A stretch of 64,000 nt of DNA from the NCBI RefSeq assembly GCF_030704205.1, contig NZ_CP131913.1:3534001-3598000 (forward strand), written 5' to 3'. Each line of letters begins with the position of its first letter. Position 1 is the first letter of the stretch. The translations under genes were made by a program, and so were the position numbers. The notes beneath the pieces were generated by a model that did no database searches, was not told the origin of the DNA, and saw only the letters and a program-made list of their open reading frames with translations. This stretch comes from Halomonas alkalicola. GTDB lineage: Bacteria; Pseudomonadota; Gammaproteobacteria; Pseudomonadales; Halomonadaceae. Shown in pieces: positions 22,851 through 48,808 of the stretch.

Positions 22851-22884
22851 CGTTCCCACTACTTCGAGGAAGCGGAGCGTCGGG

Positions 22885-22969
22885 GGCAGGCCGAAGAGGA
22901 GGTCCTACGCCAGGGATGGCGTCGGTAGCGTACAGGGATGTATTCACAGCGCCTCCTCGCAGGCCTGCC
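22885..22969 (+). ncRNA. Structured repeat with two CsrA-type hairpins, copy 1
   Basis: A fold-back element between leuD and leuB, on the transcribed strand. Outer stem: GGCAGGCC (22885-22892) with GGCCTGCC (22962-22969), then a 3x3 loop, then GAGGAGG (22896-22902) with CCTCCTC (22952-22958). Inside are two hairpins. The first is ACGCCA-GGGA-TGGCGT (22907-22922). The second is TACA-GGGA-TGTA (22931-22942), whose context GUACAGGGAUGU equals the CsrA/RsmA SELEX consensus RUACARGGAUGU. The about 50-nt core recurs at 48634-48683 with a compensatory pair change. Whether it acts as a leader element, a CsrA decoy or only a mobile repeat is open. Confidence 0.6.
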
Positions 22970-23006
22970 GCCGAGGTAGCTCCGCGGTCCCAGCAAGGAA
23001 GAAGCA

Positions 23007-46762: not shown

Positions 46763-48505
46763 CTACCCCAGCTCGCTGGCGGAGGGCGCCTCCACGGCCA
46801 GTATCTGCAGGTGAATCTCCGGCAGGCGGCGCAGGTGGTCCGCGAACCAGCCCATCAGGCGCGGCTGCAGGGCGAGGCGAAGCTCCGCCAGGGTATCCCC
46901 CGTCAGTGTCTCCAGGGTCTCATCCAGCCAGTCGGTGAAGGCCTCCTCGTCGATGGGGCTGGCCTGGCTGGCGTCCAGCATCAGCCGGCCGATGCGCGTC
47001 CAGCCCCCCTCGCCGGTGGCAGTCACCGACAGCGCGAGATAGAGGCTGCCGTGGCGCGGTCCCTGGTTCGGGCCGGCCAGGCCGGGCAGCGGGGCCACGG
47101 CGTTCTGGCTGACGATGCAGGGGGGCTGTGGGTGGCGGGACACCAGGGAGAGCCCCTCGGCGTCCAGGCGGATCAGGTCGCCGTTGAGGGGGATCAGCGG
47201 CGCCTGGATGCCCAGCGGCTCGGCCAGTTCCCGATGGGCCTGCTGGTGGCGGGGCTCGCCGTGCACCGGCAGCAGGTGGCGCGGCTTCACCCAACCGTAG
47301 AAGGTGCGCAGCTCCTCCTGGGCAGGGTGGCCCGAGGCGTGCAGCTCCGGGTGGCTGAACTCGTCGAGCAGGGTCACCCCCAGGCGCTTGAGGCCGCTCT
47401 TGAGCCGCTCGATCAGGAGCTCGTTGCCGGGAATCGCCTTGGCCGAGAAGATCACGCTGTCCCCCGCGCCGAGCTCCATGGCGTGGTGGCGGCCGCGGGC
47501 CAGGCGGCTGAGCGCCGCCCGGGGCTCGCCCTGGCTGCCGGTGGCGATCACCAGCACCTCGTTGGGGGGCAGGTAGCCGAGGTCCGAGACGGGCACCAGG
47601 GGCGGGAAGTCGTCCAGGTAGCCGAGGCCGCGGGCCACCGCCACCATGCGCTCCATGGAGCGCCCCATCAGGCTCACCCGGCGACCGTTGCGCTGGGCGG
47701 CGTGGCCGATGGCCAGCACCCGTGCCAGGTTGCTGGCGAAGCAGGAGACCACCACGCGCCCCTCGCAGCGGGCGATGGTGTGCTCGAGCGCCCGGGCCAC
47801 CTCGCCCTCGCTGCGCGAGTGGCCCGGCATGGGGGCATTGGTGGAGTCGCCGACGACGAGGTCCACCGGCGCGATGGCGCGGAAGGTAGCCGCCGACATG
47901 GGCTTTCCGATCAGCGGCTCGGGGTCGAGCTTCCAGTCGCCGGTATGCAGTACGCGGTGCTCGCCGGCGGCCAGCAAGAGGGCGCAGCTCTCGGGGATCG
48001 AGTGGGTCAGCGGCAGGTAGCGCAGGGTGAAGGGGCCGCACTCCAGCGCCTCGCCGGGCTCGATGACCCGGATGGCATCGGTGGCCAGGCCCCGCTCGAT
48101 GAACTTGGCGCGCAGCAGGCCGGCGGCCAGCGGGGTGGCGTGGATGGGGCAGCCCCACTTCGGCCATAGCCAGGCGGCCGCGCCGATATGGTCCTCGTGG
48201 CCGTGGGTGATGATCAGCGCCCGGGGGCGGATGCCGAGGGCGGTGAGGGTATCGAGGTTGGGCACCTGCAGCGGGCTGTCGGGAAGGTCCTGGCGGATCA
48301 TCATGCCGCAGTCCACCGCGATCCACTCGTCCTCGGGGCCCCTCTCGCCAAAACCCCTCTCTCCAAAACCATAGAGACTCAGGTTCATGCCGATCTCGCC
48401 GCAGCCGCCCAGCGGCAGGAAATGCAGGGGAGGGCGGCGGCGGGGGCGAATCTGGACTCTGGGCTGTGGCATCGGCAGGCGCGGGCTCGGAAAGTGTTGT
48501 TTCAC
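46763..48505 (-). CDS. Ribonuclease J family protein
   Basis: A 580-residue beta-CASP metallo-beta-lactamase of the RNase J type, an RNA endo- and 5' exonuclease. The metal motif is LIITHGHEDHIGAAAWLWP (HxHxDH), with LPLTHSIPESC and LHTGDWKLDPEPL as further ligands. The beta-CASP part has VVVSCFASNLARV and the late motif VIATGSQGEPRAALSRL; the sequence LHASGHPAQEEL carries the last histidine. It starts with GTG (48503-48505). A 15-bp tandem duplication (48339-48368) gives the repeat GFGERGFGERG near residue 47, in frame. RNase J is uncommon in gammaproteobacteria, which rely on RNase E. Confidence 0.85.
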   Translation of the reverse strand: MKQHFPSPRLPMPQPRVQIRPRRRPPLHFLPLGGCGEIGMNLSLYGFGERGFGERGPEDEWIAVDCGMMIRQDLPDSPLQVPNLDTLTALGIRPRALIITHGHEDHIGAAAWLWPKWGCPIHATPLAAGLLRAKFIERGLATDAIRVIEPGEALECGPFTLRYLPLTHSIPESCALLLAAGEHRVLHTGDWKLDPEPLIGKPMSAATFRAIAPVDLVVGDSTNAPMPGHSRSEGEVARALEHTIARCEGRVVVSCFASNLARVLAIGHAAQRNGRRVSLMGRSMERMVAVARGLGYLDDFPPLVPVSDLGYLPPNEVLVIATGSQGEPRAALSRLARGRHHAMELGAGDSVIFSAKAIPGNELLIERLKSGLKRLGVTLLDEFSHPELHASGHPAQEELRTFYGWVKPRHLLPVHGEPRHQQAHRELAEPLGIQAPLIPLNGDLIRLDAEGLSLVSRHPQPPCIVSQNAVAPLPGLAGPNQGPRHGSLYLALSVTATGEGGWTRIGRLMLDASQASPIDEEAFTDWLDETLETLTGDTLAELRLALQPRLMGWFADHLRRLPEIHLQILAVEAPSASELG

Positions 48506-48611
48506 TATACGGGAAGGCCCGGGGCAGCCACAACGACGCGCAGGGCCGGCGGTAGCCAGCGAGTGACGGGGCCAGGGCGGTCGAGGGAAACATGCAGCGG
48601 CGTTAGGTGCG

Positions 48612-48706
48612 CCGGGGATAGCTCACCGAGGGGGTCCTATGCCAGGGATGGCATCGGTAGCGTACAGGGATGTATTCACAGCGCCCCCGAGGGGAGCTAT
48701 CCCCGG
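48612..48706 (+). ncRNA. Structured repeat with two CsrA-type hairpins, copy 2
   Basis: The second copy of the element at 22885-22969, in the 303-nt divergent gap between the RNase J gene and purU, oriented with purU. Outer stem: CCGGGGATAGCTC (48612-48624) with GAGCTATCCCCGG (48694-48706), a 5x5 internal loop, then GGGGG (48630-48634) with CCCCC (48684-48688). The core hairpins are ATGCCA-GGGA-TGGCAT (48639-48654) and TACA-GGGA-TGTA (48663-48674). The outer stem differs completely from copy 1 yet pairs as well. The rest of the gap holds only a possible purU promoter; I see no other gene. Confidence 0.6.
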
Positions 48707-48808
48707 GACAGCACCGAACGAAGTCGCTAGATGCCGGAAGGTGCTGTTTTCGCTACACTGTCGCACCCCGATTACAGCCCAAGCCCAACGCCAAACCAGA
48801 GGCACGCC

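Follow-up and report, generated by a model that had tools for sequence, protein, structure and literature searches.

The Yersinia palindromic sequence YPAL, or RU-2, was described by De Gregorio 2006, as cited in Delihas 2007 (PMC2759123), whose accessible text prints the letters of RU-2. As far as the available text of PMC2229807 goes, YPAL is mobile, lies between genes and is joined to upstream transcripts, the stability of which it may affect. The accessible parts of the YPAL/RU-2 literature, these two papers included, mention neither CsrA nor any occurrence of the family beyond enterobacteria. Two repeats in the 64,000-nucleotide stretch of Halomonas alkalicola DNA analyzed here (the window) share with the printed RU-2 letters a core in the same strand, made up of two hairpins with ANGGAX loops (CAAGGATG, CATGGATG; spacing in RU-2 24 nt), a linker, and TTTACGGCG. 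Local alignment of RU-2 with the element core scores 65, where the best of 500 shuffles reaches 42, and both repeats are intergenic and multi-copy. They differ in length, with about 167–168 bp in the accessible YPAL descriptions compared with 120 bp here, and their arms are unrelated. YPAL is also characterized by a target-site duplication of 3–26 bp; the empty sites seen here, at leuD-leuB and purU, are in distant species only. Going by its letters, the window element is a shorter relative of YPAL, and we class it as a relative and not as YPAL itself because 120 bp is too short for the latter.

Rfam leads to the other strand of the same repeat. With RF02770 (Ysr224, Yersinia sRNA 224), for which the cut-off is 70, a copy from Yersinia reaches 94 bits, but Ysr224 is the opposite strand and is without the GGA loops. 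A window copy reaches 18.7 bits on the − strand, below that gathering cut-off, and no Rfam family matches at cut-off within the window. Of nine weak Rfam matches near copy 1 that were considered, just Ysr224 made sense.

The loops lead to a different set of described RNAs. According to the available text of PMC4005645, an ANGGAX hexaloop placed directly on a stem is a high-affinity RsmE/CsrA site, affinity falls when N is missing, and CsrB/RsmZ-type sRNAs display A(N)GGAX loops on stems. The element likewise carries ANGGAX hexaloops on stems, with GGA constant while the stem varies. Its layout is different, with two sites per unit in many dispersed copies instead of many sites in one sRNA. REP elements (GTAG/CGTC-tagged, in the accessible text of PMC3733652) are also dispersed palindromes, and inverted doublets of our element occur in some genomes, but REPs measure 20–40 bp compared with about 120 bp and two hairpins in a duplex here. 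As for the terminal inverted repeats that define MITEs, the ends of the element pair but vary among 28 copies. Likened by description, the nearest parallel in the literature would be a set of Rsm targets from P. putida, where the available text of PMC7937890 reports intergenic ISPpu8-flanking RNAs pulled down by RsmA, RsmE, and RsmI, one of these RNAs being a long palindromic region. A search mostly of open-licence papers, with few subscription papers within its reach, returned none that links CsrA with this repeat class.

Two copies of a dispersed family

Both repeats had been noticed in a sequence-only reading of the window, and each is larger than was drawn there, at 120 bp (Table 1). The letters of the two copies confirm the compensatory difference in H1 that it had pointed out, ACGCC/GGCGT versus ATGCC/GGCAT, and folding agrees with its view that the outer stems differ in sequence between copies and are paired in both. 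The window contains two instances of the 22-mer GTACAGGGATGTATTCACAGCG, which is absent from all 100 shuffles. Relative to 200 shuffles, the predicted folds have z-scores of −5.71 (copy 1) and −5.54 (copy 2) on the + strand, and −4.90 and −5.12 on the − strand. The neighbors named in that reading are upheld by NCBIfam, with leuD and leuB around copy 1 and purU downstream of copy 2, and both copies lie in sense; copy 1 takes up most of the leuD-leuB gap. By eye, the arms of copy 2 (L004) are clearly deviant among the 28 aligned copies. The divergent gene upstream of copy 2 (46763–48505, − strand) encodes an RNase J-type protein under the curated NCBIfam cut-offs, in a gammaproteobacterial host.

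Table 1. Features of the two copies, in window coordinates. Covariance-model scores are for copies that were both among the model-building sequences.
Feature	Position	Strand	Evidence and remarks
Copy 1, whole element	22871..22990	+	Covariance model 133.4 bits, E 2.2e-29; between leuD and leuB
Copy 1, outer duplex, left side, with internal loops	22871..22904	+	Fold and pair analysis
Copy 1, hairpin H1, ACGCC AGGGAT GGCGT	22907..22922	+	Hexaloop 22912-22917
Copy 1, hairpin H2, TAC AGGGAT GTA	22931..22942	+	Hexaloop 22934-22939
Copy 1, conserved bulge and linker, TTCACAGCG	22943..22951	+	(Near-)invariant in 28 copies
Copy 1, outer duplex, right side	22950..22986	+	Fold
Copy 2, whole element	48603..48722	+	Covariance model 120.9 bits, E 2e-26; between the divergent RNase J-type gene and purU
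Copy 2, hairpin H1, ATGCC AGGGAT GGCAT	48639..48654	+	Hexaloop 48644-48649
Copy 2, hairpin H2, TAC AGGGAT GTA	48663..48674	+	Hexaloop 48666-48671
Copy 2, conserved bulge and linker, TTCACAGCG	48675..48683	+	Sequence comparison, 28 copies aligned

The sequence-only reading had proposed a search for further copies in this genome and its relatives, and such a search recovers a dispersed family. A pattern search finds 35 copies in the H. alkalicola genome. A covariance model, built on an alignment of 28 of the 30 copies retrieved as loci (two with inserts were excluded), gives 56 matches there: 53 strong copies with E < 1e-13, two weak matches, and one match that lies antisense to a strong copy. 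The model has matches in 67 of 97 genomes, comprising 58 of 61 in the genus (the H. alkalicola genome included) and 9 of 36 from other families of the order. Of 369 genomes sampled across the class, 48 contain a pattern of H2 plus the bulge and none contains the reversed control pattern. With one genome per GTDB species, the two-hairpin pattern occurs in at least 118 stretches; the 80 matches listed include Stenotrophomonas, Xanthomonas, Yersinia, Marinobacter, Vibrio, and Shewanella, and by title 78 of these 80 are gammaproteobacteria and two merely "Proteobacteria bacterium". Among plasmids the element was found in one record, at three places in the 1.8 Mb plasmid of Halomonas sp. PA16-9, and two patterns for distant-type cores matched no plasmid. 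Searches of phages and of E. coli genomes gave no match to the element, and among viral contigs the two-hairpin pattern occurs in two stretches (L475, L476) and another core pattern in none. By these comparisons, the element copied at the two window sites is a dispersed gammaproteobacterial palindrome of mobile origin, with a core in common with YPAL/RU-2.

Some lineages carry the element in unusual numbers or arrangements. One genome (G355) holds 460 exact core motifs, far above the others sampled. Stenotrophomonas genomes have from tens to about a hundred matches each, and at loci L408–L425 the element sits inside composite inverted repeats of several hundred base pairs. G065 and G063 contain many divergent doublets (for example L127, L130, L135, L147, and L150), in which the 5′ ends lie face to face and each strand has one GGA-presenting copy.

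Architecture and the folded strand

Read inward from its paired ends, the element has a long outer duplex, then H1, a linker containing (G/T)AGC, H2, a bulge of TTCAC(A/G)GCG, and the return strand. The H2 stem has three pairs. Among the matches listed, 90 distinct sequences (30 genomes of the class) show it paired at 170 of their 180 positions, with a search pattern that does not require pairing. The outer arms are best compared in three more distant genomes, G063, G065, and G079 (loci L062–L161), where they are near-perfectly paired, mostly 26–47 bp long when aligned, and flanked by conserved ends and a conserved core. Between copies of the same genome (16, 25, and 9 copies, respectively, after one of 17 G063 rows was dropped for having no GGA, and with one G065 row of 9-bp arm kept that looks false), arm identity is 0.61, 0.56, and 0.60 compared with 0.54, 0.54, and 0.49 for shuffled letters, and core identity is 0.81, 0.72, and 0.71. 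This pattern indicates that the outer duplex is constrained in pairing more than in sequence. Arms so nearly unique could be taken for captured or target DNA; the conserved ends outside the arms (G063, by eye) and arm changes that happened in place in Stenotrophomonas favor drift with compensation. At the one site that could be compared between G063 and G097, the two species have different elements.

Covariation, the lack of which would have told against the sequence-only reading, exceeds that of shuffled alignments both in the family set and at orthologous sites. In the 28 aligned copies of the genome, 98.6% of pair cells hold standard pairs, and both sides have changed in 21 of 38 pairs, compared with a mean of 9.0 in 500 shuffles and 4–5 in slid versions. 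A further 70 distinct copies from the genus give 21 of 38 against 9.7, in a set that is biased toward the model because it comprises the best-scoring matches fitted to it. Covariation at a fixed orthologous site is a better test than covariation across a family. The leuD-leuB site in seven congeners, picked by eye for identical element ends, has 5 double-changed pairs compared with 1.1 in shuffles, and one orthologous copy in five Stenotrophomonas strains has 6 compared with 2.7, a count equalled in 1 of 500 shuffles. The Stenotrophomonas double changes are distributed across the arms, H1, and H2, and the loop letters A, G, G, and A are unchanged in either hairpin. On this comparative evidence the structure is under selection, and together with the genome-wide family the covariation bears out the earlier view that these repeats are not only a copied sequence.

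The strand that folds can be read from the mismatches, since G-T and A-C mismatches on the GGA strand would be equally frequent if double-stranded DNA were what mattered. In the own-genome copies, G-U outnumbers A-C by 22:1 without two nearly fixed columns (76:1 with them), and in the 70 other genus copies by 15:2 without two fixed columns. The independent arms of G063, G065, and G079 give 20:2, 32:10, and 12:3, the G065 count taking in internal-loop positions. A cruder count on ungapped arms of 101 copies has G-U at 37 and A-C at 48; it includes 325 internal-loop mismatches and we judge it spoilt by them, and it nevertheless stands against an RNA reading. Because G-U far exceeds A-C in the structure-based counts, the GGA strand works single-stranded, as RNA or as single-stranded DNA, and the excess fits both alike. 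What these alignments show to be kept is the GGA strand as a folded structure of long outer duplex, H1, H2, and conserved bulge.

Loop conservation and genomic position

Loop letters were counted in copies found by the bulge motif and arm pairing, with GGA not required, within loci retrieved by the covariance model. GGA is present in H2 in 139 of 143 such finds, and the other four look like errors of register or strand. In H1 it is present in 134 of 143; inspection by eye puts eight of the nine misses down to strand errors or mispicked hairpins and leaves one genuine change (L149). Across 136 GGA-bearing H2 hexaloops the fixed letters are nearly invariant (A 135, G 136, G 135, A 135), and all four letters occur at N and at X. 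Similarly, in the 35 pattern-found copies of the genome all 280 letters at the A, G, G, A positions are unchanged, compared with 35 of 140 N/X letters that differ from the commonest. In 118 of 135 cases the two GGA motifs are 22 or 23 nt apart. There are exceptions among distant copies: by eye the H2 loop of L062 is ATGAAT, and some G065 copies have an H1 pentaloop without N. The genome encodes CsrA. The RsmZ family has no match in it, a weak test, given that control genomes likewise have none over the cut-off.

The position of the copies bears on which transcripts could carry them. With a retrained gene caller, 50 of the 53 own-genome copies lie outside predicted genes and 3 inside; 12 are in convergent spacers and 5, copy 2 among them, in divergent ones, and between tandem genes 28 are sense and 5 antisense (p 7e-5). 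A co-oriented gene lies 5′ of 40 of the 53, and 35 of these 40 copies are at most 42 nt from its stop codon, with most copies in the genome starting about 22 nt after one. Because they are mostly sense and close behind stop codons, the copies appear to be 3′UTR or intercistronic elements and rarely leaders. The bias persists in 101 genus copies (54 sense to 23 antisense), a set of 32 own copies and 69 top-scoring ones from other species in which orthologues are not independent. Outside the genus, in other gammaproteobacterial lineages and with cruder gene calls, there is none (22:18 in 71 copies, 12:11 in 60). The sequence-only reading had held that equal antisense numbers would tell against it, and on this point its prediction survives in the H. 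alkalicola genome and fails beyond the genus. Within the genus, antisense and sense copies fold alike (medians −67.9 and −67.3 kcal/mol, p 0.85).

Orthologous sites were read by eye. In the best 30 of 61 leuD-leuB loci, the element is forward in 18 and inverted in 9; of the remaining three, two are empty and one is occupied by a different sequence. For purU, 13 of 22 loci tried were readable, and 10 of these 13 are without the element, G053 with doubtful anchoring among them; G031 and G046 carry it inverted and G056 forward. Inverted and empty orthologous sites imply that over evolutionary time the element can move or invert, and make a strict leader role unlikely. The purU copies of G046 and G056 have a second palindromic repeat (GGCTGGCC ATGGAT GGCCAGC, also with an ANGGAX loop) inserted in H1, and among the leuD-leuB and purU orthologues G030, G042, G045, and G051 show remnants of an older end beside a newer copy.

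Competing explanations and a possible role

The reading we favor, at a probability of roughly 60%, is that of an RNA element of mobile origin that is retained as a bivalent dock for CsrA/RsmA. The element would be transcribed together with the gene in front of it, and a single CsrA/RsmA dimer could dock on both loops. The outer duplex may serve a partner that reads shape, either as a 3′-end barrier that halts an exonuclease or as an RNase III site that releases the two-hairpin core; such partners would suit the arms because these are bound to pair and little bound in sequence. Tens of copies would then couple many transcripts to CsrA, and the outcome could be titration of CsrA or an altered stability or 3′-end fate of the carrier mRNAs.

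The main rival, which we consider unlikely on balance, holds that the GGA strand folds as a single-stranded DNA substrate whose loops are read by a transposase or recombinase (compare REP/RAYT, IS200/IS605, and attC), the fit to CsrA loops being a coincidence. It would account well for strand-specific folding combined with free orientation to genes outside the genus, for the inverted or empty orthologous sites, and for the divergent doublets in two genomes. The inversion of 9 of the 27 filled leuD-leuB sites and the missing bias beyond the genus are also what speaks against the CsrA dock. That antisense copies are as intact as sense ones, folding equally well, favors the DNA substrate and counts against any function borne purely by mRNA, which would not predict it. 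A DNA substrate leaves unexplained, however, why the loops of both hairpins carry the letters of a CsrA site and are free at the same two positions, and why there is a sense bias in the H. alkalicola genome; compensatory change in situ with the loops kept points to use at the site. An RNA role without CsrA, in which a REP-like duplex protects or processes the 3′ end of the upstream mRNA, draws on the location right after stop codons, on the strength of the duplex, and on the accessible report that YPAL is joined to upstream transcripts with a possible effect on stability (PMC2229807). We regard it as improbable, as A, G, G, and A stay fixed in two loops while the stems, N, and X vary, and a structural 3′-end element does not explain this.

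Two further explanations are very improbable. Without any selection, paired changes could result from quasi-palindrome correction, in which the template is switched within a palindrome. This process is favored by long near-perfect palindromes and is in keeping with arms that, within one genome, resemble one another about as much as shuffled letters do and are still paired. It predicts equal G-T and A-C, in contrast to all five structure-based counts given above, and no constant loops, yet the loops are constant; the case was already disfavored on these grounds. The other is the proposal of the sequence-only reading that the copies are CsrA-binding 5′ leaders of leuB and purU. Copy 1 does precede leuB and copy 2 purU, both in sense, and 27 of the 30 leuD-leuB loci read have a copy. 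Against this stand the inverted copies at that locus, the absence from most readable purU loci, and the fact that genome-wide the tight distance is to the preceding stop codon and not to the next start. 

Of the interpretation in the sequence-only reading, a dispersed family, selection on structure, and loops of CsrA type that fit ANGGAX are supported; leader elements as the rule are not. Among the options it offered, a MITE whose hairpins bind CsrA remains the best because the loops match the published ANGGAX consensus, with binding as the predicted step.

A broader picture, which we offer tentatively and hold to be less probable than the dock itself, is that of a CsrA network built by a transposon. 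An old RNA element that has spread through Gammaproteobacteria, and can reach hundreds of copies in a genome, would be retained at single sites as bivalent docks, its drifting arms read by shape, and the copies might jointly buffer free CsrA and link transcript ends to it. If true, this would join dispersed palindromic repeats such as YPAL with the Csr/Rsm network, fields that are apart in the literature searched, and in carrier species a repeat ignored by annotation would be one of the largest classes of CsrA sites. The P. putida Rsm pull-downs, as described in the accessible text of PMC7937890, suggest that the signal may already sit in existing RIP/CLIP data. The picture also opens to test the question of whether post-transcriptional regulons can be assembled by a mobile element.
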